The position numbers were made by a program, and so were the translations under genes. From an uncultured Clostridia bacterium (GTDB taxonomy: Bacteria > Bacillota > Clostridia > Oscillospirales > Ruminococcaceae): a stretch of DNA of 64,000 bases. The notes beneath the pieces were generated by a model. The model saw only the letters and a program-made list of their open reading frames with translations. It was not told the DNA's origin and made no database searches. The stretch covers positions 1-64,000 of the forward strand of contig CALXAM010000020.1 in the NCBI GenBank assembly GCA_944386285.1. Reading direction: 5' to 3'. Shown in pieces: positions 4,537-30,007 of this stretch. How positions within the stretch are numbered: position 1 is the stretch's first letter; every line of letters starts with the position of its first letter.

Positions 4537-4595
4537 TTACGATTCCCGCTTTCTTATAAAAACATTCGATCCGTTTAATATATGAATGAAATAAG

Positions 4596-6143
4596 CTATT
4601 TCAAAACAGTTTCCGTTTGGTATTTTTGGGTGAGTGGTTTCTCATAAACACACATTCGATTTTTCCCGATACGTTTTGCACAATAAAGAGCATGATCGGC
4701 TTCACCATAGAGCGTAGCATAACAGTGCGAACCAGATCCAACGGCGGAGATCCCGATGCTGCCGCTAATTCCAACACAAATGCCCTTCCATTCTGCATTG
4801 CACAGCTCAACCAGCAACTCTTCTCCATAGCGAAGAAAATCAGACAGATTTTTGGTGGCAAATAACACAATAAATTCATCGCCGCCAATTCGTCCAAGTC
4901 TTGCGCCCATCGGTGCTTTTTGTCGCATCATAGCAGCTACATTTTTTAAAACAGCATCGCCGGCTGGATGACCAAAATGGTCATTTACGTTTTTAAAGTC
5001 ATCAATATCAAGAATGAGCGCTGCAAGCATTTCATCTTCCTGCAAATATTTCAGTTTGCGCTGTCCATACTGTTCGATTGCTGTTTTGTTAAGTACCTCG
5101 GTGAATTGATCCATTTGGATTTCTTGTTCCAGCTGAGAGATTTTCTCCTTTTGTTCGGTAATATTTGAAAGCATACCTATACCAAAAACGGGAATACCGT
5201 CTTTATTTGACTGGGTAACAACACGCAGATCGAACCAATTATTCCCTCCCGTTTTTAATGGAAGAAACAACTCGTATTTTTGAAAATGTGCACCTTCTTG
5301 TACATTTTTAAGACAATCGATCAAAATGCTCTTTTGTTCTTGTGAAATACCGTTGAGAGAACGAATATACTCGCTGAACTGCGGAATATCACATGGCTGA
5401 CCAAATAAATCGTTCCACTCTTTCGAAAAACGAATCCAATCTTTTTGAATATTCCATTCAAAGGTGACATAATGTTCTTTTTCTAAAATGAGTTCGTGTT
5501 GCTCCGCAGAGAGTTTAAACTCTTGTTTCGTATCCAAAAGCTCTTGTTGCAACGCATTCAGCGATTGTGCCTGGATCATTTCAATATGCCAATGTTTATA
5601 TCGAACTAAGTAAATGATCACACATAATAAAAAGGTAATAGAAAAGTTGATGATCTCACCTGAACCAAACATAAAATGAAGAAATACAACAAACAGCAGA
5701 TATGAAAGTGTGAGATTTACAAGTGCAAACCAAGGGCGAATCATCAAAAGAGCAGAAAAAATCATGAGTGCTGTAGTAATTGTAAAGTTACCAACAGCAT
5801 TTGAACGAATAATATCATAAATATTGAAAAACGTATGCCAGAATAAAAATACACTTCCGGCTATCATATGGATTCGATAATAAGCTTTTACGGAAAAATG
5901 AAAGCAAAATTCAAAAAGAAGAAAAAGTCCACAGCTTAGAAAGTAGAAAAGATAAAAGCCAAAATAAATTTGATTATTGAGCGTTCCCAGTCCAGCGCCA
6001 GAAAAGAACAATACGCGAATCAGGTTAAAGAACTCAAGAAATAATGTGACAAATGCACCAGTACGTAAAACAAGTCTATTGGAAACCACAGCTTGTTCAA
6101 AAAAATTTTGATTAGTACCTTGCAGCGTAACAGGATAAGTCAT
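4596..6143 (-). CDS. Membrane diguanylate cyclase (multi-TM, PAS, GGDEF)
   Basis: A 515-aa protein predicted to make cyclic di-GMP. The N-terminal ~185 residues hold about six hydrophobic helices, an integral-membrane sensory module I could not name. A short coiled coil follows, then a PAS-like domain (about 215-330, with the ITEQK end typical of PAS/PAC) and a GGDEF domain (about 345-500). The active-site loop GRIGGDEFIVLF is intact at about residues 420-424. The RxxD inhibitory site expected five residues before GGDEF is absent (PMGA there), so product inhibition of the usual kind is not expected. The gene is read away from the riboswitch operon and just upstream of the EAL gene. The ribosome site is AAAGGG, 11 bases from the ATG. 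Confidence 0.92.
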   Translation of the reverse strand: MTYPVTLQGTNQNFFEQAVVSNRLVLRTGAFVTLFLEFFNLIRVLFFSGAGLGTLNNQIYFGFYLFYFLSCGLFLLFEFCFHFSVKAYYRIHMIAGSVFLFWHTFFNIYDIIRSNAVGNFTITTALMIFSALLMIRPWFALVNLTLSYLLFVVFLHFMFGSGEIINFSITFLLCVIIYLVRYKHWHIEMIQAQSLNALQQELLDTKQEFKLSAEQHELILEKEHYVTFEWNIQKDWIRFSKEWNDLFGQPCDIPQFSEYIRSLNGISQEQKSILIDCLKNVQEGAHFQKYELFLPLKTGGNNWFDLRVVTQSNKDGIPVFGIGMLSNITEQKEKISQLEQEIQMDQFTEVLNKTAIEQYGQRKLKYLQEDEMLAALILDIDDFKNVNDHFGHPAGDAVLKNVAAMMRQKAPMGARLGRIGGDEFIVLFATKNLSDFLRYGEELLVELCNAEWKGICVGISGSIGISAVGSGSHCYATLYGEADHALYCAKRIGKNRMCVYEKPLTQKYQTETVLK

Positions 6144-6451: not shown

Positions 6452-6481
6452 TTGACAAATCGATCCGGTTCATAATATAAT
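6452..6481 (+). promoter_or_regulatory. Strong sigma-A promoter of the c-di-GMP-regulated operon
   Basis: Perfect TTGACA (6452-6457) and perfect TATAAT (6476-6481) with an 18-base spacer. Transcription would begin near 6488, about 70 bases before the aptamer core. This is the best promoter match in the window. Confidence 0.85.
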
Positions 6482-6547
6482 AAAGCTAAATAAAATGATA
6501 TTCTATATCTGTATTGTGTGTATATATACTGTATAACAATCTATATC

Positions 6548-6635
6548 GTATTGTATTTGGCAAACTTGGTGAAAGTCAAGGACGCAAAGTTTAAGAGGCT
6601 AAGGTGCTATGCTATGCCTGTCTGGCTGCAACTTT
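6548..6635 (+). ncRNA. Cyclic di-GMP-I riboswitch (GEMM-I)
   Basis: The core matches the GEMM-I consensus: GGCAAACTTGG at 6559, a GAAA tetraloop hairpin (CUUGGU-GAAA-GUCAAG), then GGACGCAAAG at 6580, followed by the P3 arm with GGCTAAGG and CCTG...GGCTGC. UUGUA (6551-6555) can pair with UGCAA (6627-6631) as P1. The 3' P1 strand is also part of the terminator stem that follows, so the ligand-bound fold should block termination. That makes it a likely ON switch. Family and ligand are established knowledge; the switch direction is inferred from base overlap. Confidence 0.92.
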
Positions 6636-6668
6636 CAGGAATTTCCTGAATGAGTTGCAGCCTTTTTT
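6624..6668 (+). terminator. Riboswitch-controlled intrinsic terminator
   Basis: GGCTGCAACT...TTCAGG pairs with CCTGAA...AGTTGCAGCC and is followed by TTTTTT. The 5' arm overlaps the 3' end of the c-di-GMP aptamer. No gene ends upstream, so this terminator can only act as an attenuator of the operon that begins at 6810. Confidence 0.9.
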
Positions 6669-6809
6669 GTTCTTATATATTTTTGTATCGCAACACTGAA
6701 CAATCAAACAAATATATGTGTTTTGAAAGAGAATGCCGTTTCATATCACTATGACAGTAACGCTTGTTTTCAGCGCCAATAATCCAAAACGAATGAGGAG
6801 AAGATTTTT

Positions 6810-6995
6810 ATGGTAACGAAAGAACAACTGGAAGAAGCAATTTCAGCATTGATACCAATTCTTGAACAGATTAAAACGTTTGAAAGACAGTATGGAAATA
6901 TTTTAATGGAATATCGAAAAGAACAAGAAATCGCAAATGAAGCAGATCGAACAGATGCTGCAATCAAAATGATTCGCAAGTATTCCAATTTATAA
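6810..6995 (+). CDS. Small 61-aa helical protein, first gene of the c-di-GMP operon
   Basis: The translation is highly charged and predicted almost wholly helical, with EQLEEAISALIPILEQI followed by an EYRKEQEIANEAD segment. There is no signal peptide, membrane helix or cysteine. GAGGAGAAG precedes the ATG, and the next gene follows 17 bases after the stop, so it is very likely translated. I do not recognise a family. Its place directly behind the riboswitch and ahead of a membrane signalling protein suggests a small partner or adaptor of the polysaccharide machinery. That role is a guess. Confidence 0.7.
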   Translation: MVTKEQLEEAISALIPILEQIKTFERQYGNILMEYRKEQEIANEADRTDAAIKMIRKYSNL

Positions 6996-7012
6996 GATGG
7001 AGGTAAATAACC

Positions 7013-9271
7013 GTGCGGAAAAAATCAGCTGCTGTAAAAGAAAAACGGAAATCGAATCCGATAGAACAGGTAAAAAAATCCGGAAGTCGTTCTACAGTGA
7101 CAATCGTGGTAGCGGTTATGCTGTTTTTAATCACTTTTTTGATTCAATTTGTTGCCACCAATATTTTACCTGCTAATCAAGGAGAAATTACCGATTGGCG
7201 ATTTTCAAGCGGTACCGATCCACAAGCCATCAGTGGAGAATTAACCACATATCGTCAAGCAACAGCGGGAGATCGCGTCTCTAAACAGTTTGGTGCACCA
7301 TATGTGCGCCTGCAATATACATTGCCGGCACAGAGTGCAGAGATGCGGCTTGTTATCAAAACGGCATATAACCCCATTCGTGTGGAAGTAGACGGAGAAC
7401 AAGTGCTTCAAAACGGATATGGCGAAAAAACATTTACCGGAAACAGTTATCAAAGCATCCTGCTCCCGGCAGGCGATGCGCGCACGTTGGATTTGTACGT
7501 ATATGCGCCACTGGCTTTTTCAATCAAGGCATATTTGGAACCTGCTCAAATTACAATGGTGCAAAGTTTCACCTATTATATCGGATTCGGAGCATCGATT
7601 GCTGTCATCCTGCTTGGTATTGGTATGTTTTTGTTCAGTATTTTCTTAGCAGCCAAAAGCCGTCATATTCGATGCCTATTACTGCTGTCTATTACGGTTT
7701 GTTTCGCAGGACTCACAGCGCTTCTTTATACCTACAGCAACACTACCATGTTACTGACCGCTTCATATTGGTTTTTTATTCTTTTACTTTCAGAGCTGTT
7801 ATTGATGATGCTCGGGTATATTACCATAGCGGCGTGCTGCAAAAATTCTCTTAAAAATGCGGCTGTTTTCATTCCGGTCGCAATTTTCAGTTTTATTATT
7901 CCATTGTTTGCGACTACATGGGCAGTACGCGCTGCTGCTGTTGTGATGACAGCTGCTCAGCTTTTCCTTGCAATAAAGGCAAACCGTATTTTTGCAAATA
8001 CGACGACACAAGCGGTACCACATATCAAGGTGGTACGGGGGATGCTTATTTACTTTGCCCTCATTAGCATTTACAACACAATCGCATTGTTTTTAGGAAT
8101 AGGACTGTTGTCCGGCTACCTGTTTTCTTGCAGTGTTTTGTTATTATGCGCTGTCATGTTTGTAGTCTATTGCCGTCAAGTTGTGTATTTGGACATTAGA
8201 AATCTAGAACGTGAACATCAGCTGTATGTGGACACTGTTTGGGCAGAAGATGTAAGCGAATTGATCACAAAGATGTTTTCACAAAAGGATGAGACGACAT
8301 TCCTTATTGAAACCGCACATGGATTGTCCGCTATTCTGGAGCGGAATTTAAATGCCATAGGAGAATCTGTTAATGTTCATGTCTGTGTTGGCGTCTATAA
8401 TGGCTCGGAGTTTGTTGAAATTCTTAATGATGGTCCAGTAGAAAATTGCGATTACATATCACTGTATAAACATCTGAAAGATCAGCCTCAAAAACTTTTA
8501 ATTGGTAACACAACCGCAGAGATGCTGTTTCAAGCGAATGACCATAGCGTAATCATTCATTTTGAAAATATTTTATGTGGAATTTCCAGACGCGTAGAAA
8601 ATACAATTCGAACCGTTTATCTTAATTTACTCGCGGTTTTTCAAAATCTAAATCTTGAAAAAGATGTGTCTGATATTCAAGAAGAACTGTTTATCAATCT
8701 TGCAACAGTTGTGGAGCAAAAATATCGCTCTACAAAAAAACATCTTGTTGTCGTAGCGGCACTTTCCTATGAACTTTGCAAGAATCTCGGCATGAGTGAT
8801 GAACGGGCAAATCTGATTTCTTTAGCTGCAATGACACATGATATCGGAAAGATCTTTATCTCAGAGCAGATTCTTGAAAAAGAAAGTCCGCTCACAGAGG
8901 AGGAATTTGAGCAAATGAAGCAGCATACAGAGGCCGGCTTCAATATTCTCTCCCTGCAAAAAGGCGTATTCTTTGAGATGGCGGCAACAATTGCACAGCA
9001 GCACCATGAAAATTTCGATGGAAGTGGATATATCGGCTTGAGCGGTCGCATGATCGCACCTGAAGCACGTCTGGTTCGTGTGATCGATGTCGTAGACGCA
9101 CTGCTTTCCAAACGAAGCTATAAGGAAGCTTGGTCTGCAGAACAAGTGAAGAATTATATTGCACAAGGAAAAAATACGCTGTTTGATCCAACAGTAGTCG
9201 ATGCGTTCCTTTCCTGCGCAGACGATCTGCTTGCATTGCGTACACATATTATAGAGGATGAGAGCATATGA
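7013..9271 (+). CDS. 7TM receptor-like protein with HD-GYP-type phosphohydrolase domain
   Basis: A 752-aa membrane protein. After a signal-anchor helix (about 28-48) there is an extracellular beta-rich domain resembling 7TMR-DISM sensory domains (about 50-180), then about seven membrane helices (185-400), a linker with a possible GAF-like fold and an HD domain (about 555-735). The HD domain keeps HDIGK (His609, Asp610), the later HH pair and the DVVDAL motif. The GYP signature, however, reads GSGYIGLSG: Pro is lost and the loop is one residue shorter than usual. It may be a c-di-GMP phosphodiesterase or a binding-only variant. The start is GTG with GGAGG upstream. Its stop overlaps the next ATG, so it belongs to the operon and could give feedback on the signal. 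Confidence 0.8.
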   Translation: MRKKSAAVKEKRKSNPIEQVKKSGSRSTVTIVVAVMLFLITFLIQFVATNILPANQGEITDWRFSSGTDPQAISGELTTYRQATAGDRVSKQFGAPYVRLQYTLPAQSAEMRLVIKTAYNPIRVEVDGEQVLQNGYGEKTFTGNSYQSILLPAGDARTLDLYVYAPLAFSIKAYLEPAQITMVQSFTYYIGFGASIAVILLGIGMFLFSIFLAAKSRHIRCLLLLSITVCFAGLTALLYTYSNTTMLLTASYWFFILLLSELLLMMLGYITIAACCKNSLKNAAVFIPVAIFSFIIPLFATTWAVRAAAVVMTAAQLFLAIKANRIFANTTTQAVPHIKVVRGMLIYFALISIYNTIALFLGIGLLSGYLFSCSVLLLCAVMFVVYCRQVVYLDIRNLEREHQLYVDTVWAEDVSELITKMFSQKDETTFLIETAHGLSAILERNLNAIGESVNVHVCVGVYNGSEFVEILNDGPVENCDYISLYKHLKDQPQKLLIGNTTAEMLFQANDHSVIIHFENILCGISRRVENTIRTVYLNLLAVFQNLNLEKDVSDIQEELFINLATVVEQKYRSTKKHLVVVAALSYELCKNLGMSDERANLISLAAMTHDIGKIFISEQILEKESPLTEEEFEQMKQHTEAGFNILSLQKGVFFEMAATIAQQHHENFDGSGYIGLSGRMIAPEARLVRVIDVVDALLSKRSYKEAWSAEQVKNYIAQGKNTLFDPTVVDAFLSCADDLLALRTHIIEDESI

Positions 9272-12200
9272 AAAAGTTAAATATCAAAATGTTTCTTAAG
9301 CCTTATTTTTTCATTCCGATTTGTCTGCTGATTTTAGTGGGATTTGCTTTTCTATTTTGGTATCTCACACCGTCTCGGAAACTTTCGGTAGTAGTTGTGG
9401 ACAAAACTGTTCCGGCAACTGCGGCAGATAGCTTTGCGTATCTTGACGATGTATCCAATAACTATCGGAAGCATATCGGCCTTTACTGGCTTATGAACCA
9501 TATGAAGATCGTAAATCCTGAAACAGATCGTGCATATGACTATACAACGGACTATTACGGTCCAAAACTAAATGCAAATAATGAGATTATCGACAGCAAT
9601 TCTATCACAGAACTCGAAACTATTCCGGATTTGCTGTATCTTTCGGATACTTACGGCGTGGAGATCTATGACGGTCACGGAATTTCAGAAGATGAAATGA
9701 ACATGATTTCATTATGTCATTCTTCGGGGTCCGTCGTGATCGGTGAACAGGATATTCTCACCACTGCAACCGATGAGAAAGTCCGCGGTGAGCTTGAGCA
9801 GCTATTCGGCATATCAACGACCGGCTGGGTTGGTCGGTATATTTATGATTTACAGGATTTAACCGATGTACCCTATTGGGCGCCAGATATGTGGCGGGCA
9901 AAATATGGACAAGAATGGAATTGTTCCGGTCCGGGCATCTTACTGGTATCATCAAGCGGTGATATTATCGTATTAGAGGAAAAAACAGATTTTCAGAGTA
10001 AAGATTTACTGACAATTTCTATTGAGGAAGAATATCGCGGCGAATTTGGCAGCAGTTCATTAAATTATTACAACTGGTTTGAGCTGATTGAAGCCGATAG
10101 TTCCACAGAAGTAATTGCGACTTATTCATTTAACGTAAATTCCACCGGCGCTGAAGAGCTGGCAGCAGTTTCAGATACCACAACTTTTGCTGCAGTTACA
10201 CGGCTTCAATCCGAAAATGCGCCAAGTACTTATTATTTTGCAGGAGATTTCAACGACTACACGACACAACTGCAAATCTCCAATTTTATGTTTGCTGACA
10301 TATTCTTTCAACTTTTATCGTTTGACAGAGACGGAGATGTCACTCATTTTTACTGGAGTTTCTATGAACCGATGATGCGCCGCATTATGGGAGATATCTT
10401 AGAAAATCCGGTAACACAAGAAACATATGAGGAACGTCAGATTGCACAAGTAAACGGTGATACCCTTCAGGTGCTAGTTGATGAGGAATGGCAGGATTTT
10501 GATATCAAAGGCTTTAACATCAATGGTGAAGCGCCCGGAGATGAGCAATACACATATACAAGAGATTATTCCTATTATGCGCAGCTGCTGCAATCTCTCG
10601 GAAACATGGGTGGAAACTGTGTTCGCACGTATGATCTACTGCCGCCGGAATTTTATCGTGCTCTCAGCGAATACAATAAATCTGCTGATTCACCCATCTA
10701 TTTGATGCAAGGAATTTTGACACCGCCGGTTATTGATCCTGCTGCAAGTTTCGAAAATATTGCAGCAATCAAGCAAAATATTGCCGCGACCATTCGCGCA
10801 GTACACGGCGAGGGAACGGTTCAAGGCAACGGTACGCGTGAGGAAATGTCCTACTCCTATAACGTGTCACCATATCTGATTGCTTACCTGATTGACCCAC
10901 GTTTCGATGCACAATCGACAGATACTATCTTAAATGGTGTCCATGGCAGTGATCACTATGCCGGAAACTATATCAGCGCAGCCGGGAACGGCGTAGAAGC
11001 GCTTGCAGCAGAACTTTGTGACTACGCACTTGATTTTATGCAGTCAACCTATGGATGCATGCAGCCTGTCAGTGTGTGCGCAGATGCACAGCGATTGACA
11101 GGAGCTTCTTGGATCGAACCGAATCAGAAGACATACAATCTATCCAATCTCACAACTTCTGAAGCAGCGAATGGATTGTATTTCACTTCCTATTCGCTCG
11201 ACTCAGATGATACAGCACTGCTTAACAATGAAGCGCATTTTTCACAGGCATACGCGGATACAACAGGCGCATTTGCTTGGGGAGGATATATTGCGGAGGT
11301 CAAATCTCTTTGCAGTGGTCCGATCTTAATTGACCGCGCCGGCCTTTCAACAAGTTCAAACATGTTTGAGCAAGAAAGCACTGTAAATGGATTGAGTGAA
11401 CGAGAGCAGGGAGAAGGCTTGGTTCGTATGCTTACCGCAGCGAACAATCAAAAATACATGGGCATGCTGATTGCAGATCTCAATGATAACTGGAGCGCTT
11501 CCTCTGAGGAGGCACAAAAGTATACCCTGCCTGCTTCGAACAATGGACTTTGGCAGAATCCTACCGATCGGGCAGAAAATACCGGTGTAGTGGCTGTGGA
11601 ATCGGTTCTGCCGTCTGAGGTGGCAATGCAGCTCAATGATAACAGCGAAAACAGCCTCATGAAGCAGATGCAGATTTCTTACAATGAATCTTATCTCTAT
11701 CTCACCGTACTGCTCAGTGCTGATATCGACTATGATCTCAATGAAATGATCATTGGTATTGACTCTTATCAGCGTAATGACGGTGAATATTTCTACGATG
11801 CAAATTACTATGCAAACAGCCAGTCCGGTATGGAATATATCATCAAGTTTGAGAGTAAAACATCAGCTGCGCTGTATGTAACCAAGAGTTACAATCGCAA
11901 TACTGGAGGTTATGCATCAAAAGAAAGTTACACCGCCGATTATGATCTGGTATCCGTGCTGAATTACGGAAACTTCACAGAATCAAATACACACTTCTAT
12001 CAGGCAGGTGTGACTGTCCGGCTGCGTATTCCTTGGGCAATGCTCAATTTTACTGATCCAGCAAACGCACTTGTAATCAACGGACAAGAAAATGGGGCAT
12101 TAAAAACAACGGAAACCGACGGAATGATCTTTTCGGTACTAATTGGCAGCAAAGAGACGAAGGACACAGCATACATTTTCCCTGAATCCAAAAAGTCTGT

Positions 12201-12309
12201 TGGATATAAACGACTCAATTTAGTACCGTGGACAGCTTCTGATGTAACTTACACCATACGCGATAAAGAGAGCACCGGAATTATTCGTCGGTATTTTATG
12301 GCATCCTGA
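9268..12309 (+). CDS. Membrane-anchored glycosidase-like protein with degenerate active site
   Basis: A 1013-aa protein with one N-terminal signal-anchor helix (about 14-32) and the rest outside the cell. Residues 35-370 form a domain I could not assign; it has a Rossmann or amidotransferase-like feel (VVVDKTVP, SSGSVVIGE). Residues about 390-740 align with the barrel of the two paralogues at 14867 and 17080 (FDIKGFNINGEAPG, NCVRTYDLLPPEFYRAL). The acid/base region is LIDPRF near Ile542 instead of G-x-E-x-DP, and the nucleophile strand reads PILIDRAG, with Arg690 at the position of Glu in IAEFG. It is therefore probably non-catalytic. A C-terminal beta domain (about 770-1000) resembles CBM9. 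The ATG overlaps the upstream stop. A structural or glycan-guiding role is likely. Confidence 0.7.
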   Translation: MKKLNIKMFLKPYFFIPICLLILVGFAFLFWYLTPSRKLSVVVVDKTVPATAADSFAYLDDVSNNYRKHIGLYWLMNHMKIVNPETDRAYDYTTDYYGPKLNANNEIIDSNSITELETIPDLLYLSDTYGVEIYDGHGISEDEMNMISLCHSSGSVVIGEQDILTTATDEKVRGELEQLFGISTTGWVGRYIYDLQDLTDVPYWAPDMWRAKYGQEWNCSGPGILLVSSSGDIIVLEEKTDFQSKDLLTISIEEEYRGEFGSSSLNYYNWFELIEADSSTEVIATYSFNVNSTGAEELAAVSDTTTFAAVTRLQSENAPSTYYFAGDFNDYTTQLQISNFMFADIFFQLLSFDRDGDVTHFYWSFYEPMMRRIMGDILENPVTQETYEERQIAQVNGDTLQVLVDEEWQDFDIKGFNINGEAPGDEQYTYTRDYSYYAQLLQSLGNMGGNCVRTYDLLPPEFYRALSEYNKSADSPIYLMQGILTPPVIDPAASFENIAAIKQNIAATIRAVHGEGTVQGNGTREEMSYSYNVSPYLIAYLIDPRFDAQSTDTILNGVHGSDHYAGNYISAAGNGVEALAAELCDYALDFMQSTYGCMQPVSVCADAQRLTGASWIEPNQKTYNLSNLTTSEAANGLYFTSYSLDSDDTALLNNEAHFSQAYADTTGAFAWGGYIAEVKSLCSGPILIDRAGLSTSSNMFEQESTVNGLSEREQGEGLVRMLTAANNQKYMGMLIADLNDNWSASSEEAQKYTLPASNNGLWQNPTDRAENTGVVAVESVLPSEVAMQLNDNSENSLMKQMQISYNESYLYLTVLLSADIDYDLNEMIIGIDSYQRNDGEYFYDANYYANSQSGMEYIIKFESKTSAALYVTKSYNRNTGGYASKESYTADYDLVSVLNYGNFTESNTHFYQAGVTVRLRIPWAMLNFTDPANALVINGQENGALKTTETDGMIFSVLIGSKETKDTAYIFPESKKSVGYKRLNLVPWTASDVTYTIRDKESTGIIRRYFMAS

Positions 12310-12345
12310 GATGAACCGTAAAGTAAGAAAAACGGGGGTGACTGA

Positions 12346-13446
12346 ATGACAGAGTTTTCTTACGAAATATTAGCAGCATCACTAATTATCGGCTTCCTCG
12401 TATTGCTGTGTGGGGAATATCTCTGGTTATATATTCTTTCAAAGAAAAACGAAGAATCGAATCTGTACAAACACGAGGTCAATGAACGGATCCATTCGTT
12501 GATGGAAGCATTCTTGTATGCACCAACCGAGTCGTCAAGACAAGTCGAATTTGACGCGTTAATCAAATATATCGGAGATGAGCCTGTCAAAAAAGATGAA
12601 GCAGCTGCCCAGTTTATTCAGCTGCTTCATCGTGCAGAGGATATTCCTCCTGAAAAATTCACGGCACTCAATAGCCTTTATGAACGACTTGATCCAATCT
12701 CGTTTTATGTACAAGGTCTTCAAAATGGAAATGTGTATGAAAAAAGTTATGCGGTCAGACGGCTTGCCGATTTTAATGCAACTGACAAAATAGAAGAAAT
12801 CCGCAAACTGCTTTCAAACCGCAATGCTGATGTTGTATATAACGCAGCAATGGCGCTTTCTGAATTGGGAGATACCGATTCAGTGGTGATCTTCTCCAAA
12901 AAATGTGAAACCAATCGTTTTTACTCCCATCGTCTGTTACTTGAGCTGTTCCAAGCTTATACTGGTGACCGTGTTGCATTGGTACATCGTTTAGATGAAG
13001 AATGCAATAACTATATTAAAGCCACGGTCATTAAAGCGTATACCGCAGATTGTCTGGGTGCGTTGGCAGGATTATATATTGACGGCATGTCAAGTCAAGA
13101 TGCAAATTTAAAAATTGCCTGTGTAAAAGCACTGGCGCAGCTTGGAAATCCAGAATATGAGCAGAAGATGGAAATTGCACTCAATGATAAAAACTGGGTG
13201 GTACGGTTGGCAGCTGTTTCGGGGCTTGAGAAAATTGGAACGCCAACCGCATTGGAGGCGCTTGTTACCGCGACACAAGATGAAGAATGGTGGGTTCGTA
13301 CTGCAGCGGCAAGAGCTATTGTCCACATTGATTTTCAACTGGTTTATGTGGAAAAAGTACTCAGTGGATACGATAAATACGCGGCAGACGCAGTGAAAAA
13401 CGCGTTGTATAAACAGATCAATATGAATGGAGGTGGTTTGCAATGA
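12346..13446 (+). CDS. Membrane-anchored HEAT-repeat protein
   Basis: A 366-aa protein with one N-terminal membrane helix (about 8-32) and a cytoplasmic-looking alpha solenoid. HEAT-like repeats are clear from about residue 125 on: AVRRLADFNATD, VYNAAMALSELGD, KIACVKALAQLGN, VVRLAAVSGLEKIG and VRTAAARAIVHID. HEAT solenoids act as protein-binding scaffolds. The stop overlaps the ATG of the glycosyltransferase by four bases, so the two are translationally coupled and probably interact. CGGGGGTG lies before the ATG. It is not a PilZ or BcsB protein; no c-di-GMP-binding motif is visible. Confidence 0.8.
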   Translation: MTEFSYEILAASLIIGFLVLLCGEYLWLYILSKKNEESNLYKHEVNERIHSLMEAFLYAPTESSRQVEFDALIKYIGDEPVKKDEAAAQFIQLLHRAEDIPPEKFTALNSLYERLDPISFYVQGLQNGNVYEKSYAVRRLADFNATDKIEEIRKLLSNRNADVVYNAAMALSELGDTDSVVIFSKKCETNRFYSHRLLLELFQAYTGDRVALVHRLDEECNNYIKATVIKAYTADCLGALAGLYIDGMSSQDANLKIACVKALAQLGNPEYEQKMEIALNDKNWVVRLAAVSGLEKIGTPTALEALVTATQDEEWWVRTAAARAIVHIDFQLVYVEKVLSGYDKYAADAVKNALYKQINMNGGGLQ

Positions 13447-14870
13447 CTTTTTTGAATATCGTTCGAAGCTTTATCCGTTTCTTTAACTATTTCTGTATGG
13501 CCTATACGATTTTGCTTGGTATCATCTATCTGATTCAGCTGTTCACTGCTTTAAAAAAGGTGAGAAAGCAGGAAAAGAGAAAAATTTCTGAGGATCATAT
13601 GCGTTATGCGACATCAAAAAATCTTTTACCCATTTCCTTGATCGTCCCTGCGCATAACGAACAGGAAAACATCGTCCATAACGTAAAAGATTTGCTTCAG
13701 CTTGATTATCCGCAATTCGAGGTTATCGTCGTAAATGACGGTTCTACAGACAGTACACACGATAAAATGATTGAAGCGTTCAAACTTTATCCGATTGAGA
13801 GCGCGATGAAAATCAAAATTCCGACAAAGGAAATTTATCATGTCTATTATAATATCGAATATCCGAATCTCTATTATATTGATAAGGCAAACGGCGGAAA
13901 ATCTGATGCGCTGAATGCTGGAATCAATCAGTCACAGTATCCGCTTTATGCCTGTCTGGATGCTGACTCCCGTATTGAACGCGATGCACTTTTAATTTTG
14001 GGCGAGGAATTTTTGAAGGATACCACCACTGTTGTGGCAGGTGGTTTCGTGCGTATTGCAAACGGCTCCGTTATTGAAGGCGGCGAATGGAAACGATTTG
14101 ATATTCCAAAACGAATGGTAGAACGTTTTCAAATCGTAGAGTATTTTCGTTCGTTCCTTGCAGGACGACTTTCATGGGGAAAGGCGTTGCTCATTGTCTC
14201 AGGTGCATTTGGTGTGTTTAATAAGCAGGTCGTCATCGACGCCGGCGGATATAAAACAAATACCATTGGTGAGGATATGGAAATTGTGGTGCGTGTCCAT
14301 CGTTTCATGCGCACACACAAACGAAAATATATGGTGAAATTCTGTCCCGAGGCAATTTGTTGGACACAGGGGCCAATGAGTTTTACCGATTTGCAGAGCC
14401 AACGGCGTCGCTGGCAGATTGGTCTATTCGACACATTAAAATCACATATTATCATGACGTTAAACCCACGCTTTCGTTCGGTTGGACTGCTCTCCATCCC
14501 CTACAGCTGGTTGTTTGAATTTTTGGGAACCGTGGTGGAAACGCTCGGATACTTCATCATTCCGTTTTCCCTTTTAATGGGAGAGCTCAACATGTATTTC
14601 TTTATCCTCTATTTCTTCTTGTCTGTCATGCTTGGCATTATGCTTTCTGTTGGCGGAATTATTCTTGAACAGAATACGCGAAAAGGATGTATGTCTTCGA
14701 GTCAGGCAATGAAGCTTTCACTTTATGCAATTTTAGAGAATTTCGGTTATCGGCAGGCGATTACACTGTTCCGCTTCGGAGGAATTGTTCGGTATCGCAA
14801 ATATAAAAGCAGTTGGGGACAAATTAAGCGTAGGGAATTTAACACCATGACTGAAAGGAAAAAAGCATGA
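13443..14870 (+). CDS. Processive family-2 glycosyltransferase (polysaccharide synthase)
   Basis: A 475-aa inner-membrane GT2 enzyme predicted to polymerise a beta-linked polysaccharide from nucleotide sugars and move it across the membrane. All signatures of processive GT2 enzymes are visible: VVNDGST, ANGGKSDALN, CLDADSR (DxD), IGEDMEI (ED) and QSQRRRWQIG (QxxRW). One helix precedes the catalytic domain (about 15-37) and two or three follow (about 345-440). The size and layout resemble PgaC/IcaA or the short BcsA-like synthases without PilZ, so c-di-GMP is unlikely to act on it directly; control comes through the riboswitch. It overlaps genes on both sides by four bases. The product sugar cannot be told from sequence alone. 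Confidence 0.9.
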   Translation: MTFLNIVRSFIRFFNYFCMAYTILLGIIYLIQLFTALKKVRKQEKRKISEDHMRYATSKNLLPISLIVPAHNEQENIVHNVKDLLQLDYPQFEVIVVNDGSTDSTHDKMIEAFKLYPIESAMKIKIPTKEIYHVYYNIEYPNLYYIDKANGGKSDALNAGINQSQYPLYACLDADSRIERDALLILGEEFLKDTTTVVAGGFVRIANGSVIEGGEWKRFDIPKRMVERFQIVEYFRSFLAGRLSWGKALLIVSGAFGVFNKQVVIDAGGYKTNTIGEDMEIVVRVHRFMRTHKRKYMVKFCPEAICWTQGPMSFTDLQSQRRRWQIGLFDTLKSHIIMTLNPRFRSVGLLSIPYSWLFEFLGTVVETLGYFIIPFSLLMGELNMYFFILYFFLSVMLGIMLSVGGIILEQNTRKGCMSSSQAMKLSLYAILENFGYRQAITLFRFGGIVRYRKYKSSWGQIKRREFNTMTERKKA

Positions 14871-17077
14871 AAAAATGGTTGCTTTATGTTGGAAGCACCC
14901 TCTTAATTCTCGCCTTTATGGTGCAGATGGGCTGGCTTCAAATAATAGGGATTAACCGCATCTCTTTCGGCGGCGATCGTCCTGATGAGGTCAATCGTGT
15001 TGACACGCAAGACTATGTAATCGAGGACGGTGTAGCCTATCGGATCAAAGCGGAAGGTGAATATTTTTATCAGTATTCCCGTGAAGATGATCAGTGGGAA
15101 AAGGTGTTTTGGAAAGGTGTAAATATCGGCGCAGGCGAACCTGGATTGTTTCCAGGCGAACTGACAATCAGCTATGATGATTATTTGCACTGGTTTGGTT
15201 ATATTTCTGAGATGAACTGCAACTGTATTCGTGTATACACTACCATGCGGCCGCAGTTTTATCAGGCGCTGTACGACTTTAACAGCACCGCAGAAAATCC
15301 GTTGTATTTATTCCATGGTGTCTGGATGGATGAAGATGACATCACAACATATGCCGACGTTTATGCTGAAAACGAAAAGATTAAAAATGAATTCATACAA
15401 GATGCACTCAATTGCGTAGATGTGGTAATGGGAAATGCCGTTCTTCCGGAACGAGCGGGCTTCGCTTCGGGCACCTACACAGCAGATGTATCCAGATGGC
15501 TTGCCGGATGGATTTTGGGCATTGAAAGTGACCCGAAATTTATTCAAAGCACCAACGACTTAAATCCTGATAAAAGCACATATGAGGGAACTTATCTGTA
15601 TACCTATGGCGCTACGCCGTTTGAAGCGTTTTACTGTGAAGCAGGCGATAAAGTAATCTCCTATATGACGGAAAATTATGGGATACAATGTCCTGTGGCT
15701 TTTGCAAACTGGGTAACGACCGATCCTCTTTCCCATCCGCAGGAACCGCATGAAGACGAGGATTTGCTTACATTCAATACAGAAAGCATCAAAAGCCGTT
15801 CATCATATAAGTCAAATCTGTTTGCATCCTATCACGTTTATCCATACTATCCGGACTCAATGAACTATCAAACGGATTATCTTGCGTATATTGATGATGA
15901 CGGTAAAGTAAATCCTTACGAGGCATATTTAAAAGATCTAAAATTGGCACATACTGTACCGATTATCATTGCAGAGTTCGGCGTTCCAACCAGCCGTGGT
16001 ATAACGCATCAGAGCGTTATGGGGTACGACCAGGGCGGCGTTGACGAAACAGAACAAGGAGATATGCTGGCTGACATGTATCAATCTATTTATGACTGCA
16101 GCTATGCGGGAGCGATTGCTTTTACCTGGCAGGATGAATGGTTTAAACGTACATGGAACAATGAAAGCCTTGATATTGCAGACGCCCGTCCTTATTGGTC
16201 CAATATTCAGACTTCAGAACAAAACTTTGGCATTCTGGCATTTGACCCAGGAGAAGAGCAAACGGTATGCGTGCTTGACGGCAATACAAAAGAATGGACC
16301 GAAGATGATTTGATTACTTCGGGAAACTGCGGCGATCTTTATATGATGAGCGACGAACGATACGTTTACTTTATGGTTCAGTTCAGTGAAGATTTTGACT
16401 ATCAATTTGAGAAGGATACCTTGTTAATTCCAATTGATACGATCAGCGAACAGGGCAATACGAAAATGAATGACACAGGAACAACCTTTGATAGTGCGGC
16501 TGACTTTGTCCTGTGGATTAACGGATGGGACAATTCCCGGATTGTTGTGGACTCATACTACGATTCGTTCTATTTTCTTTATGGCGATCAATATGCGATG
16601 ATTCCAAAGGTTTCGGATATTGCAACCAAAGACAGCGGACGATTTAATCAAATGATGATGTGTATGGGATATGAAATGACAATTCCCGGCAGCAATCAGG
16701 TGATTCCGTTTAATAGTTATGAAACGGGAAAACTCGCTTACGGAAACGGTGATCCCAATAGTGACGATTATCAATCACTGTCGGACTTTATTTATAATGC
16801 CCAAGATGGTACATTGGAAATCCGCATTCCATGGCAGCTTCTCAATGTAATGGACCCTTCAACCAAACAGATCATGAGCGATTTTTATACCGAACAGAAT
16901 ATCACACCGACCGACTTTGAGCAGTTTACCGTTGGTTTAGGCGTTTTAACACAAGAAAACCAGAGAATCTCTTTGGATGGAGCATATACATATGATACTT
17001 GGAAAATGCCAACTTATCATGAACGACTTAAGCCTTCTTATACGATATTGCAGGAAGCGCTGAAGGAGTTGAATTAA
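14867..17077 (+). CDS. Membrane-anchored glycoside-hydrolase-like protein with CBM9-like domain
   Basis: A 736-aa extracellular protein held by an N-terminal signal anchor (about 5-25). A clan GH-A-like barrel spans about 50-450: FWKGVNIGAGEPG, then NCNCIRVYTTMRPQFYQALY (strand with conserved Arg). Glu220 in LGIESDP is the candidate acid/base and Glu370 in IIIAEFGVPTS the candidate nucleophile; IAFTWQDEWFKRTW closes the barrel. The C-terminal part (about 465-730) is beta-rich and resembles CBM9. It is a paralogue of the next gene and of the degenerate protein at 9268. The ATG overlaps the synthase stop, so it is coupled to polymer synthesis and may trim or remodel the nascent polysaccharide or transfer it to another acceptor. 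The family number is not certain (GH2/GH5-related). Confidence 0.75.
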   Translation: MKKWLLYVGSTLLILAFMVQMGWLQIIGINRISFGGDRPDEVNRVDTQDYVIEDGVAYRIKAEGEYFYQYSREDDQWEKVFWKGVNIGAGEPGLFPGELTISYDDYLHWFGYISEMNCNCIRVYTTMRPQFYQALYDFNSTAENPLYLFHGVWMDEDDITTYADVYAENEKIKNEFIQDALNCVDVVMGNAVLPERAGFASGTYTADVSRWLAGWILGIESDPKFIQSTNDLNPDKSTYEGTYLYTYGATPFEAFYCEAGDKVISYMTENYGIQCPVAFANWVTTDPLSHPQEPHEDEDLLTFNTESIKSRSSYKSNLFASYHVYPYYPDSMNYQTDYLAYIDDDGKVNPYEAYLKDLKLAHTVPIIIAEFGVPTSRGITHQSVMGYDQGGVDETEQGDMLADMYQSIYDCSYAGAIAFTWQDEWFKRTWNNESLDIADARPYWSNIQTSEQNFGILAFDPGEEQTVCVLDGNTKEWTEDDLITSGNCGDLYMMSDERYVYFMVQFSEDFDYQFEKDTLLIPIDTISEQGNTKMNDTGTTFDSAADFVLWINGWDNSRIVVDSYYDSFYFLYGDQYAMIPKVSDIATKDSGRFNQMMMCMGYEMTIPGSNQVIPFNSYETGKLAYGNGDPNSDDYQSLSDFIYNAQDGTLEIRIPWQLLNVMDPSTKQIMSDFYTEQNITPTDFEQFTVGLGVLTQENQRISLDGAYTYDTWKMPTYHERLKPSYTILQEALKELN

Positions 17078-17079
17078 CC

Positions 17080-19248
17080 TTGTCAAAAAAAGCTGTACTT
17101 ATTTGGTCAATGATCGCGCTTGTCTGTGTGATCGCAGGGATTATCGTTCGTTTGATAGGTCAGCCTTCGGCATCGTTTTCATCGGAGAGTGAAAATCAGC
17201 AAAGCAATATCCTTCCCCTGATTCAAACAAACGGCGTTTCCGTTCGCTTTCGTGCGGTAAATCCATATTTTTATACAGCACAGGATGACGGATTTCATCC
17301 CGTCTATTTAAAAGGCGTGAATATGGGGCTGACGGAGGCAACAACGGACCTTGCAAACCCAAATGTATCATATGAGACATATATGGAATGGCTTGACCTT
17401 ATTGCACAAATGAACGCAAATACAGTACGTGTATTTACGGTGATGCCGCCGCAGTTTTACACTGCGTTATATGATTATAACGCTTCATCCGAAACACCGT
17501 TATATTTGATTCAGGGTATTTGGTTCAATGAGAATGATATGTATGAAGGAGAACACGCCTTCATAGATGACGAAAGAATTGTGACATCATTTACGCGGGC
17601 TGCGCGGGAAACACTTGATATCATTCATGGAAATAGTGACTACACTGACTATGGTGAAATCAAAAATGCAGTATATTCCCATGATGTTTCACAGTATGTG
17701 GTCGGTTATATCTTAGGTCTTGAATGGGACCCTGGTTTTGTACAGCGCACAAATACACAGACTGCATACGCCGGATATGCCGGTGAATATTTAAAAACAA
17801 CAGATGCAGCAACTCCGTTTGAGAGCTTTTTGTGTGAAGTAGGAGATTATCTGATCACATATGAAACAGAAACTTATTCTGCACAGACTCCCGTCGCTTT
17901 TTTAAACTGGGCAACAACTGACACGCTTACTCATACAAATGAACCATTTGAGGAAGAAGATCTGGTTTCGGTAAATACTGAAAACATCATCGGAACAGAT
18001 GTCTATTACTGTGGATTGTTTGCAGCAGTTGATGCATATCCATATTATCCGGAATTTATGAATCATCAACCTGAATATCTTACTGCGCTTGAATCTGGCG
18101 AAGTGAATCCTTATCGTGCATATCTTGCACAGCTGCGTACACAGTATACCGTTCCTGTCATTATCGCCGAGTTTGGCACATCGACCAGTCGAACTATGGC
18201 GCATCAATCTGTCATGGGAATCGATCAAGGCGGATTGACAGAAGAGGAACAGGGAGAAGCAATTGTTTCGATGATGCAAAGTATTGCCTCGGAAAATTAT
18301 GCGGGTTCACTCATCTTTTCATGGCAGGATGAATGGTTTAAGCAGACATGGAATACATTCAAATATGCTCCCGATGACCCTGCCACACGTACGCCGAACG
18401 TACAATCTGCGGAACAAAGTTATGGGCTGTTAGCGATGGAACCGGGTGAACAAACAGCTTGTTTCATCGATGGCTTGGACACTGAGTGGACTGGAACAAA
18501 ACCGATTGTCAATGAAAATGGATATACGGTATCCACGATGTGGGATGAAGCGTATCTCTATTTAAAAATTGAAACATCTGCATTTGACTTTTCGCGTGAT
18601 ATTTTGTTGCTCCCAGTACAAATTACAGGCCTCGGCAGTACAAATGCCGTTGCGTATGATGTATCGTTTTCTGATGCGGTTGATTTCTTACTTGTCATCA
18701 ACGGTGAAACCAAAACGCAGCTGCTCACCGATCCGTATCAAGATCTGTTTTACTACACTTACAGTTACGAAAAAGGCGTATTCCAACGAGATGACGCGAT
18801 GGAACAGCAGCATAGCGGACAGTATACGCCCATTCGTCAATTTATTTCAAATGAAATCGTACTGCCGTTAACAGGGGAAGTTATTCCGCCACAGTATGTA
18901 GAAAGTGGGTTGCTTACCTACGGCATCACGGACCCCGATCATGAACAATATTGTTCATTGGCAGATTTCTATTGCAACGAAAATATGATCGAAGTACGGA
19001 TTCCATGGTATTTACTCAACGTTATGAACAGCACATGCGGCGTGTGCCTGCAAGATTTTTATGATGCGGGCGGTGTAGATGTGATGGATATTGACCACAT
19101 AAAAATAGGTGTAGGTACACCAGACAATGATTCCATTACATTACACGATATTGGCTATACAACAAAGGCGACATCTTCTTTCCATACGCGACTAAAACAA
19201 TCCTATTTTATTGTCCAACGCGGAATGGAAGAATTGATCGTCCCTTGA
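17080..19248 (+). CDS. Second membrane-anchored glycoside-hydrolase-like paralogue
   Basis: A 722-aa protein with the same plan as its upstream neighbour: signal anchor (about 7-27), barrel (about 55-440) with YLKGVNMGL and NANTVRVFTVMPPQFYTALY, candidate acid/base Glu215 in LGLEWDP and candidate nucleophile Glu364 in VIIAEFGTSTS, then IFSWQDEWFKQTW and a CBM9-like C-terminus (about 460-715). Both catalytic acids are retained. The start appears to be TTG at 17080, two bases after the previous stop, with AAGGAG 11 bases upstream; the weak start suggests coupling. The tandem pair looks like a local duplication followed by divergence. The substrate is probably the polymer made by the GT2 enzyme. 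Confidence 0.75.
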   Translation: MSKKAVLIWSMIALVCVIAGIIVRLIGQPSASFSSESENQQSNILPLIQTNGVSVRFRAVNPYFYTAQDDGFHPVYLKGVNMGLTEATTDLANPNVSYETYMEWLDLIAQMNANTVRVFTVMPPQFYTALYDYNASSETPLYLIQGIWFNENDMYEGEHAFIDDERIVTSFTRAARETLDIIHGNSDYTDYGEIKNAVYSHDVSQYVVGYILGLEWDPGFVQRTNTQTAYAGYAGEYLKTTDAATPFESFLCEVGDYLITYETETYSAQTPVAFLNWATTDTLTHTNEPFEEEDLVSVNTENIIGTDVYYCGLFAAVDAYPYYPEFMNHQPEYLTALESGEVNPYRAYLAQLRTQYTVPVIIAEFGTSTSRTMAHQSVMGIDQGGLTEEEQGEAIVSMMQSIASENYAGSLIFSWQDEWFKQTWNTFKYAPDDPATRTPNVQSAEQSYGLLAMEPGEQTACFIDGLDTEWTGTKPIVNENGYTVSTMWDEAYLYLKIETSAFDFSRDILLLPVQITGLGSTNAVAYDVSFSDAVDFLLVINGETKTQLLTDPYQDLFYYTYSYEKGVFQRDDAMEQQHSGQYTPIRQFISNEIVLPLTGEVIPPQYVESGLLTYGITDPDHEQYCSLADFYCNENMIEVRIPWYLLNVMNSTCGVCLQDFYDAGGVDVMDIDHIKIGVGTPDNDSITLHDIGYTTKATSSFHTRLKQSYFIVQRGMEELIVP

Positions 19249-19291
19249 ATACACAACCACCATGTTTCGATAGATTATTAGGAGGTACAAG

Positions 19292-20419
19292 ATGAGTAGT
19301 TTTAAGAAATCTTTCAGAGGCTATCGTGTGTCCGAAGTAAATGCGCGTCTCCAAACACTTGAAACAGAGATTACGTCATGGATGGAGAAATGTAAGACAC
19401 TTGAAAATCAACTGACACAGGCAAAACAAGAAGAAAAAGAAGCGCATGACAAGCTTTTGTTGCGCGAAGAACAACTTTCACTTCGTGAACGAGAATTGAC
19501 AGTGCAAAAAAAAGAAGTTGAAAAAATAAAACGTGAGTATGGGCGTTTATTGCAAGAACAATCACAGAAAAAGGACAGCGCAGAATCCATTGGACGCTTG
19601 TATTTGAAAGCGTTTGAAAGCGGATGTGAAATTGCATATGCACCGAAACCACATGTAGAACAATTTTTAGGAAATATCGAAAGTGCCACAAAGGAAGCAC
19701 AACGCGAATTCTTTGAGGCCAAGCAAAAGTTTTCGAGCATTTCTGCTGAATTTCAAACAATTATTTCACAGATCCAAAGCCAATCTGATTTCTTGCGTCA
19801 AAGGTTCGAAAACCTTTCTGAAGATGTAGAAAAAATCGAAACGGTTTATGCAAAGTTTGATGAGATCAAAGCTGCAACAAAATCCGATATTGAAGGACTT
19901 CAGAAAAAATACGAAGAACTTGTTCATGAATATTCAGAGGATGCAACAACTTCTTCAGAAGCACAATCACAACAAGGTTTTTCATTTGTACCACGTACCG
20001 ACCATAAGTTAGAAAAGACGTCCGCTGCACGTATGGCTTTTTATGTGCCTGAACAACAGGAGGAAATCAAAGAAAATTCTGAGCCTAAAGAAGTTCATGA
20101 AGATCAAACCCAAGTCATACATGAAGAACAACAGGAGTCTAAAAATTCTGTTACTGTAATGGATTCGAAAACACCGATGACCTATGAGGAACAAGAAGAC
20201 AAACAGTTAGAAGAATCAGTACAATCGACACCATCCGAATCTGTTGCACAAGTGTATCCTGATACATACGATGATTTTCGTGATGAGCAGATTGAAGCAG
20301 AAAAGCAGGCCTTTGTTAATGAAATGACGAATGCTGCAGGAGCAGAAACCGCAAAGACCAATGAACTGATACGTGGACAAAACGTATTAAACCTGCTGAA
20401 CAAGTACAAAAAATCATAA
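19292..20419 (+). CDS. DivIVA-like coiled-coil protein
   Basis: A 375-aa soluble protein. The first 30 residues, FKKSFRGYRVSEVNARL, match the FxGYxxxEV membrane-curvature-sensing N-terminus of DivIVA/GpsB proteins. A long coiled coil (about 20-110) and a second helical stretch (about 140-215) follow, then an acidic, Gln/Glu-rich, low-complexity tail ending in a short basic helix. DivIVA proteins gather at poles and septa and recruit partners. TAGGAGG precedes the ATG, and the gene lies 43 bases after the last glycosidase-like gene, with the operon terminator behind it. This suggests polar or septal placement of the polysaccharide machine. It is not the housekeeping DivIVA, which normally sits beside ylm genes. 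Confidence 0.75.
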   Translation: MSSFKKSFRGYRVSEVNARLQTLETEITSWMEKCKTLENQLTQAKQEEKEAHDKLLLREEQLSLRERELTVQKKEVEKIKREYGRLLQEQSQKKDSAESIGRLYLKAFESGCEIAYAPKPHVEQFLGNIESATKEAQREFFEAKQKFSSISAEFQTIISQIQSQSDFLRQRFENLSEDVEKIETVYAKFDEIKAATKSDIEGLQKKYEELVHEYSEDATTSSEAQSQQGFSFVPRTDHKLEKTSAARMAFYVPEQQEEIKENSEPKEVHEDQTQVIHEEQQESKNSVTVMDSKTPMTYEEQEDKQLEESVQSTPSESVAQVYPDTYDDFRDEQIEAEKQAFVNEMTNAAGAETAKTNELIRGQNVLNLLNKYKKS

Positions 20420-20565
20420 GATATAGAAGCAGTCAAATTTAGCTTTATTCCTATAAAGTGTTTGTAAAAAGGGGACTCAGCGAATTTGTTTATTCCGTAA
20501 GCACATCATCTCACTGTTCCTTACATCACCTATTGCGTGTATCCAATAGCCGCTATTAAACGTAT

Positions 20566-20607
20566 AAAAAGAGGCCATTGCAAAAATTTGCAACGGCCTC
20601 TTTTTAT
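20566..20607. terminator. Terminator of the c-di-GMP operon (bidirectional)
   Basis: AAAAAGAGGCC-ATTGCAAA and TTTGCAA-CGGCCTCTTTTT form a stem of about 18 bp with one mismatch, with T-runs in both directions. It closes the plus-strand operon and can also serve the convergent antiporter gene. The remaining ~150 bases between the DivIVA-like gene and this hairpin show nothing I can name. Confidence 0.88.
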
Positions 20608-20677: not shown

Positions 20678-21907
20678 TTATGATTTCTCCGCCAATTCAC
20701 ACATTTGGGATGATTCTTTTGTGAGCAGTTTTTTGTAAGTCAAATCCATTCCGATTGCGCCAAGCGGTGCAGTAGTCAAAATGGCAAGCACTGCAACAGA
20801 AAGAACAAGTTTTCCGCAGGCAAGACCCGCTGCCAGCGGTACCGATCCGATTGCTGCTTGTACCGTTGCCTTTGGGAGATAGGCAATCATACAGAAAAGA
20901 CGTTCCTTCTTAGAAAGTTTTGTTTTGACTAAGCAAAGAGATACGCCCAATGAACGAAATGCCAACGCAATGAAAATCATCAAAACAGCGGCAATACCAG
21001 CACTTAACGTATAGCGGATATCCACAGCGGCACCAACCAACACAAACAAAAGCACCTCAGCAGCAATCCAAAGCTTTCCGAATTTTTCAGAAAGGCGCTT
21101 AGAAACAAACGAAGGACTTTTTATTTTTAAAACACAGGCCATACTAATGACCGCAAGCAGCCCCGAAATCGGGATAATCCCAGTAAGCCACGTTTCCACC
21201 GAAAGAAATAAAAACGAAATGGCAAGCACCACAATCATTTTGGTACTGTTGCGGATTGTACGGTGATGTGTATAAGCTGTTTCAAAGAACATACTAAGTA
21301 TCCATCCGATTCCGGCGCCAAGTGCGATCCCAAGAATAATAGAAATTGGAATGTTTATAAAGTCCATAAGATGCGCACCTTGTCCTTGTGCCATACTTAA
21401 AAATGTGGAAAACAGCACAATGACAACGATATCATCACATGAAGCACCTGCCATAATCAGCTGCGGAATACTCTGCTGCGTACCGTATTTTCCATCCATC
21501 AGACGCACCATGCGAGGGATCACAACGGCAGGAGAAACAGCACCCAGGACAGCGCCCATCACAGCAGCTTCTATTCGTGTGACAGGCAAAAGCAAGGGTG
21601 CAAACAGAATAAATGCCGCAATTTCAAAACAAGCCGGTACAAACGACATCAACACTGCAGGGCGTCCGACCTTTTTTAAATCAGACAGATTTAAAGAAAG
21701 TCCTGCTTTTAATAAAATGATAATGAGCGCCATCTGCCGCAGCTCAGAAGAAATCGACAGGATAGACGGCGCAAGAAAATCGAGCACATACGGGCCTAAA
21801 AGAATGCCGGTAAAAAGCATTCCAATGATACGCGGCAGTTTAAGTGCCTGACAGATTCCTGCCATAGAGAGTCCGACCAAAAAGATGAGTGCAAGCGATG
21901 TTAACAT
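20678..21907 (-). CDS. Cation/proton antiporter (CPA family), fluoride-riboswitch controlled
   Basis: A 409-aa integral membrane protein with about 12 helices of the monovalent cation:proton antiporter fold (NhaP/KefB-like). Visible landmarks are LGPYVLDF after the second helix, LIIILLKAGLSLNLSDL, the helix VLGAVSPAVVIPRM and GASCDDIVVIVLFS, whose paired Asp residues fit the ion-binding DD of CPA2 exchangers. There is no C-terminal TrkA-N domain. AAGGAGG precedes the ATG. Its leader is a fluoride riboswitch, so the cell makes it when fluoride is high. It could restore pH or ion balance disturbed by HF entry, or export fluoride-linked ions. Antiporters are a known minor class of genes in the fluoride regulon. 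Confidence 0.85.
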   Translation of the reverse strand: MLTSLALIFLVGLSMAGICQALKLPRIIGMLFTGILLGPYVLDFLAPSILSISSELRQMALIIILLKAGLSLNLSDLKKVGRPAVLMSFVPACFEIAAFILFAPLLLPVTRIEAAVMGAVLGAVSPAVVIPRMVRLMDGKYGTQQSIPQLIMAGASCDDIVVIVLFSTFLSMAQGQGAHLMDFINIPISIILGIALGAGIGWILSMFFETAYTHHRTIRNSTKMIVVLAISFLFLSVETWLTGIIPISGLLAVISMACVLKIKSPSFVSKRLSEKFGKLWIAAEVLLFVLVGAAVDIRYTLSAGIAAVLMIFIALAFRSLGVSLCLVKTKLSKKERLFCMIAYLPKATVQAAIGSVPLAAGLACGKLVLSVAVLAILTTAPLGAIGMDLTYKKLLTKESSQMCELAEKS

Positions 21908-22022: not shown

Positions 22023-22028
22023 TTTTTT

Positions 22029-29943: not shown

Positions 29944-29959
29944 ATAGCTATATGATAAA

Positions 29960-29997: not shown

Positions 29998-30007
29998 TAC
30001 CAAACAT

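Follow-up and report, generated by a model that had tools for sequence, protein, structure and literature searches.

A GEMM-I riboswitch precedes a recurrent operon that probably directs synthesis of a surface polysaccharide in Ruminococcaceae

The window referred to below is the whole stretch of DNA analyzed, 64,000 nucleotides in length. On its plus strand, a sigma-70 promoter (TTGACA-18-TATAAT, positions 6452-6481) matches the consensus at 12 of 12 positions; it tops the 37 sites of the region and is the sole 12/12 site in 15 kb, while weaker promoter-like sites occur at chance frequency only. Eight open reading frames follow on the same strand, named here A to H, with starts at 6810, 7013, 9268, 12346, 13443, 14867, 17080 and 19292. 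Neighboring genes overlap by 4 nt at the B/C, D/E and E/F junctions and are separated by 2 nt (F/G), 17 nt (A/B), 36 nt (C/D) or 43 nt (G/H). Promoter-like and terminator-like sites inside the operon are found at chance frequency, a search for an internal terminator within it gave no convincing candidate, and a bidirectional terminator read directly from the sequence at about 20566-20605 closes the unit. The initial annotation had proposed one promoter leading into eight close-set genes, with five tight junctions: the promoter, the eight genes and the tight packing are all recovered, but only four junctions measure 2 nt or less. More than chance adjacency is at work, since genes B-C-D-E-F-G keep this order in dozens of loci of other genomes.

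Downstream, a Na+/H+-exchanger-family gene (20678-21907) converges on the operon terminator, and a fluoride riboswitch (48.9 bits) lies directly upstream of this gene on the minus strand, at 21956-22028. Further along, the minus strand carries a glycan-foraging gene set (26430-39290) that includes a surface GH85 endo-beta-N-acetylglucosaminidase of 1,952 aa whose C-terminal tail is anchor-like, a sialidase-like/BT_1020-like protein, an APH-type kinase-like protein and a GH30 enzyme. A 434-aa protein without a Pfam match is encoded on the plus strand at 28639-29943 and ends beside tRNA-Leu(taa), at 29937-30015.

Between promoter and first gene, a c-di-GMP-I (GEMM-I) aptamer is located on the plus strand at 6549-6633. 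The Rfam covariance model RF01051 scores it at 56.3 bits, for a cut-off of 35 (E 2.5e-8), in agreement with the riboswitch recognized in the initial annotation. An intrinsic terminator at 6624-6668, consisting of a plus-strand hairpin of -25.5 kcal/mol (stem 6624-6662) and a U tract (6663-6668), starts within the aptamer. The 3' strand of P3 spans 6621-6627 and the inferred P1 pairs 6551-6555 with 6627-6631; the 5' arm of the terminator occupies 6624-6627, four of the seven P3-strand nucleotides, as well as the P1 strand (6627-6631). Because this strand is shared, aptamer and full terminator are mutually exclusive, an arrangement from which the riboswitch is predicted to act as an ON switch for c-di-GMP. 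Folding with P2 and P3 alone enforced still allows the upper hairpin, which lies away from the U tract, so that the switch would depend on stem shortening and on P1. Thirteen Ruminococcaceae leaders, the window among them, have a GEMM-I element upstream of the operon: a clear aptamer-overlapping terminator with U tract is present in 11, and a weaker one in the other two (L009 and L080).

In aptamers of this family, c-di-GMP binders differ from cAMP-GMP binders in having G, not A, at the counterpart of Vc2 G20. The window aptamer has a G there (GGCAAA, alignment A2) and is predicted on this basis to be of c-di-GMP type. The aptamers of L097 (a Bacillales bacterium) and L099 (Paenibacillus terricola) have an A at the equivalent position, as do cAMP-GMP-binding variants. 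Both regulatory signs are documented for the aptamer family to which the window's element belongs: class I elements are OFF switches in C. difficile (PMC6200980), whereas reporter expression is switched on by Bc1, a GEMM-I element of the B. cereus group (PMC11218506). We found no description in the open-access literature of a GEMM-I element upstream of a GT2-HEAT-GH operon.

The riboswitch is surrounded by genes of c-di-GMP metabolism. Divergent from the operon, at 4596..6143 on the minus strand, lies a gene for a membrane-bound GGDEF protein with an intact motif, a predicted diguanylate cyclase (Pfam GGDEF, 101 bits). Next to it on the same strand (2266..4536), a protein with a dCache domain, a degenerate GGDEF domain and an EAL domain (Pfam EAL, 212.7 bits) is a predicted c-di-GMP phosphodiesterase. 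Gene B (7013..9271) encodes an extracytoplasmic N-terminal domain, about seven transmembrane helices and an HD-GYP-type HD domain (HD_5, 90 bits). In B the metal-ligand motifs HD...HHE of HD-GYP phosphodiesterases are kept; the GYP motif has become GYI (HHENFDGSGYIGL), losing its P and one residue in length.

Searching the genome, which is 99.9% complete, we found two GGDEF domains at 2266-6143 and a third elsewhere, and a single EAL domain, a single HD_5 match and a single GEMM-I element, namely the protein at 2266..4536, gene B and the aptamer at 6549-6633. PilZ had no match anywhere in the genome in a search that did detect it in five control genomes; a search for c-di-GMP-II gave no match either, yet no positive control gave a match in that search. 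Nearly all recognizable c-di-GMP genes of the organism, of the types searched, are thus contained within about 18 kb, and point at the operon. This confinement to one island, with one riboswitch and one main output, goes beyond the initial annotation, as do the terminator predicted to make an ON switch and, described below, the catalytic state of C, F and G and the conserved C-terminal tag of A.

Genes D and E encode the HEAT and the GT2 protein. D (12346..13446) is a HEAT-repeat protein with an N-terminal transmembrane helix (HEAT_2, 88 bits). E (13443..14870; 475 aa) is a processive-type GT2 membrane synthase (Glycos_transf_2, 81 bits) that combines transmembrane segments with intact D, DxD, ED and QxxRW motifs, the last in the form QRRRW; D99, D173/D175, E277/D278 and Q320xxRW are kept in nearly all of 75 sequences. 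Its nearest NCBIfam model is PgaC_IcaA, with 125 bits for a cut-off of 422 (E 3e-36), and a further score, of 95 bits, is obtained with TIGR03111, the XrtG-associated glycosyltransferase family. E falls far under every named synthase cut-off, so that these models assign it no sugar. Because of TIGR03111, the exosortase-G gene set was considered as a possible link; the idea was dropped, PTPS-related proteins having been seen only beside divergent E homologues (L059 and L079). In Trichococcus and at L040, E measures about 950-1,000 aa and has a weak HEAT-like match at the N-terminus, and weak HMM evidence, from L033, L037 and L040, hints at a HEAT-GT2 fusion in some relatives. Coordinates and protein descriptions given earlier for the eight genes prove essentially right, Pfam backing HD_5 in B, HEAT in D and GT2 in E.

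Three further genes, C (9268..12309), F (14867..17077) and G (17080..19248), encode single-pass anchored paralogues, F and G being 39% identical to each other and C about 25% identical to either. None matches a model in Pfam or NCBIfam, and a profile of F searched against PDB sequences returned nothing credible. By fold, the barrel of the AlphaFold model of F (pLDDT 92.7) is nearest to GH157 (Z 32.8), with GH2 enzymes at about 27: it superposes on LaGH157, an endo-beta-1,3-glucanase (PDB 9g4n, 9g5g, 9fz9), over 313 residues at 2.2 A, with 17% identity. The link to GH157 is a fold match, no GH157 profile having matched in the Pfam and NCBIfam libraries used; F differs from LaGH157 in its membrane anchor and added beta domains as well as in its sequence, which matches none in the PDB. 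F and G conform to clan GH-A, a TIM barrel with glutamates after strands 4 and 7: in F these are E220 and E370, both are present in G, and the pair is invariant in 64 of 64 F and G sequences and also in six of six long Bacillales-type homologues. We describe F accordingly as a GH157-like hydrolase or transglycosidase. From the GH157-like barrel one might expect a beta-1,3-linked glucan, bearing in mind that a fold does not fix the substrate.

C is built differently, with an extra N-terminal domain, a GH157-like barrel and a C-terminal beta domain (model pLDDT 85.5, GH157 Z 27.8). At its nucleophile position, all 27 Ruminococcaceae C proteins have R, K, G or A. Their acid/base motif is missing or eroded: an E does occupy that column in five of the 27, but outside the GIE context. 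The Paenibacillus C protein (L035) retains E370 but not E220. As judged from these residues, C is a catalytically dead pseudoenzyme. The N-terminal region of C also aligns with the long Bacillales homologues, in which both catalytic residues are present. This suggests a possible origin of C and F/G through duplication and division of labor.

The first and the last gene of the operon both encode coiled-coil proteins. Gene A (6810..6995) encodes 61 aa ending in ...MIRKYSNL. At first A seemed confined to one lineage, but a coiled-coil ORF of 61-112 aa lies directly before B in 34 of the 36 loci with a full-length B. These counterparts end in (L/M/I)(L/I/V)x(K/R)YS followed by one to five residues, an ending present in just two of about 5,850 other ORFs of the same loci. 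Gene H (19292..20419), a coiled-coil protein with a DivIVA-like N-terminus, ends in ...RGQNVLNLLNKYKKS; in the window and in L001-L006, H bears a related LLxKY motif at its C-terminus, a pattern noticed only after that of A had been seen. We hypothesize that A and H share a docking tag, perhaps for the HEAT protein. This tag also resembles the final helix of REC domains, a likeness that we took to be coincidental. H scores below the DivIVA cut-offs (Pfam 19.8 versus 28 bits, NCBIfam 15.7 versus 22) and is the last operon gene in close relatives only; a polar location of the system, which H might suggest, is for these two reasons unproven.

The initial annotation had called for a search of other genomes for the HEAT-GT2-anchored glycosidase order. 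A single scan covering about 85,000 species genomes gave 511 relatives of F, and the family is present in 22 of 398 sampled Bacillota genomes. Loci were collected through F, whose presence is thus given by construction. Of the 80 loci retrieved with F itself, 76 have an E homologue at most 6 kb from the F-family gene; in 55 of 69, D is the gene immediately before E. About 36 loci are of the Ruminococcaceae type, with the order (f5)-A-B-C-D-E-F-G, where f5 is a small anchored protein. A core of HEAT, GT2 and hydrolase genes extends across Clostridium, Paenibacillus and Bacillales: Clostridium and relatives have the order F-(REC or GGDEF-REC)-D-E, and in Bacillales a long F accompanies HEAT and GT2 genes and one for either a GGDEF-REC or a PAS-GGDEF protein, several of these loci also encoding hybrid kinases. 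The system claimed as new is hence not unique to this organism, its core being widespread in Bacillota; no locus described in the open-access literature was found to match it.

Among the 36 loci with a full-length B, a GEMM-I element was detected upstream of the operon in 12; it was not found upstream in the other 24, which include at least one contig (L001) that starts too near. The element also lies upstream in a same-genus sibling (L115, genome G048), in Paenibacillus (L035) and in Lachnoclostridium (L048). With 12 of 36 full loci so equipped, c-di-GMP control of the operon is recurrent and not universal. Within the genus the operon itself is patchy, a close GT2 being present in one of seven same-genus genomes searched. 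In the sibling and several near relatives, f5 follows the riboswitch and precedes A; behind H, the gene for a secreted protein, f6, is under a second GEMM-I element. Neither f5 nor f6 was found in the window's own genome, the sibling's copies being detected with another program; both are accessory to a core formed by A-G.

Copies of f6 stand behind their own GEMM-I element beside the operon in L003 (15585-16547), L009 (15961-19096) and L115 (19023-19901). The copy from L003 had no match in Pfam, and f6 is a candidate matrix protein. In several loci with the Clostridium version of the cluster, the GEMM-I element stands not before the operon but before the gene of another secreted protein without a Pfam match, f10 (L041:10373-11278, L043:14729, L049:15729, L051:14945 and L053:14693), which is possibly a polymer-releasing enzyme.

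We compared the operon with known polysaccharide systems. Like bcs and pga, it has one membrane GT2-type synthase and, as in bcs/ccs, pga and pel, glycoside hydrolase-type proteins are co-encoded and c-di-GMP is implicated in control. It differs from bcs, pga and pel in its RNA switch, its HEAT protein and its three GH157-like anchored paralogues, and in the absence of PilZ, BcsB, GH8, PgaB and Pel parts. The initial annotation had recognized none of these parts, and Pfam and NCBIfam likewise detect none in the eight proteins. For cellulose (bcs/ccs), CelA scores 31.9 bits against 699, and BcsB, GH8 and PilZ are missing from the eight proteins; for PNAG (pga/ica), the eight proteins contain no deacetylase domain and PgaC_IcaA stays at the sub-threshold score given above; for Pel (pelDEADAFG), they contain no PelF, PelG or PelD domain. 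The ydaJ-N genes of Bacillus form a Firmicute c-di-GMP-dependent exopolysaccharide set with GT2 and hydrolase genes, and both the ydaJ-N and pss sets have GH8 and BcsB-like proteins. In a comparison by domains only, no GH8 or BcsB-like Pfam domain was seen here. Listeria pss (PMC4125290) resembles the operon as a Firmicute c-di-GMP-dependent exopolysaccharide locus with GT2 and hydrolase genes. The mixed-linkage beta-glucan synthase RiGT2 of Romboutsia ilealis (PMC10374906) is, like E, a processive GT2 with QxxRW from a Gram-positive gut bacterium; RiGT2 has a C-terminal PilZ domain (PMC10374906), whereas E has none. No polysaccharide locus with the operon's gene set was found in the open-access literature.

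In our preferred reading, the eight genes probably form an operon of an undescribed type, inducible by c-di-GMP, for a surface polysaccharide made by a synthase-dependent route. When c-di-GMP is low, transcription starting near 6490 would end at the 6624-6668 terminator. A rise in c-di-GMP, for example through the divergent GGDEF protein, would let the aptamer hold the 6621-6631 strand, given the specificity for c-di-GMP that we infer in vivo, and RNA polymerase would then read through into all eight genes. E would polymerize and extrude a sugar chain, with D as its cytoplasmic partner; A, joined in this clade by H, would serve as a coiled-coil adaptor. On the outer side of the membrane, C would bind and guide the chain, while F and G would trim, release or transfer it. 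B may sense an external cue and degrade c-di-GMP, thus exerting negative feedback. The REC, GGDEF-REC or hybrid-kinase genes in the clusters of other lineages count in favor of this c-di-GMP-linked explanation; the loss of the GYP motif in B counts against it, as do the C. difficile OFF switches (PMC6200980) against the ON switch. A fuller version, in which the system is a new class of c-di-GMP polysaccharide machine in Bacillota, with a HEAT-scaffolded GT2 making a beta-glucan, GH157-like cutting or transfer, docking of small coiled-coil proteins through the LLxKY(S) tag, a DivIVA-like polar tie in the genus and a single-output c-di-GMP circuit that includes cyclase, phosphodiesterases and RNA sensor, is put forward tentatively, its chances being well under even.

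The operon might instead serve a wall-attached polymer, a glycolipid or the glycan decoration of surface proteins, with F and G transferring the chain to an anchor. We regard this as unlikely: single-pass anchoring of C, F and G, the potential of F and G for transglycosylation, the TIGR03111 score of E (95 bits) and the secreted f6 co-located under its own GEMM-I element in some relatives would all be in keeping with it; however, E carries the QxxRW of processive synthases, Pfam recognized no lipid-carrier glycosyltransferase, flippase or ligase in the operon, and f6 is not found in this genome. Still less probable is a distant PNAG-type system of the PgaC/IcaA kind, producing poly-N-acetylglucosamine. 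PgaC_IcaA is the best NCBIfam model for E (E 3e-36), which presumably resembles PgaC/IcaA in size and transmembrane layout too, but the 125 bits remain remote from the cut-off of 422, the operon has no PgaB/IcaB deacetylase domain, and the hydrolase fold is nearest to GH157, whose solved member binds laminari-oligosaccharides.

Lower again do we place an OFF switch or a cAMP-GMP-binding aptamer, by which the operon would mark a low-c-di-GMP or another state. The class I switches of C. difficile are OFF switches (PMC6200980) and some relatives' aptamers have A at the discriminating position; yet in the window terminator and aptamer compete for one strand, the discriminating position is G, and predicted cyclase and phosphodiesterase genes adjoin the operon. 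That the enzymes mainly forage external glycans and do not act on a self-made polymer is very improbable: a glycan-degrading set (GH85, GH30, sialidase-like) does lie within the same window, but in 76 of 80 loci the F-family gene has a GT2 as neighbor, usually together with a HEAT gene, and it keeps these neighbors in Paenibacillus and Bacillales, besides gut lineages.

If a c-di-GMP-inducible surface-polysaccharide operon is indeed what we observe, a widespread and so far unnamed polysaccharide system would join the few known in Gram-positive bacteria, and C, F and G, protein families without Pfam models, would acquire a context. The near-total confinement of the organism's c-di-GMP set to one island would also provide an unusually simple natural circuit for the role of c-di-GMP in gut Clostridia.
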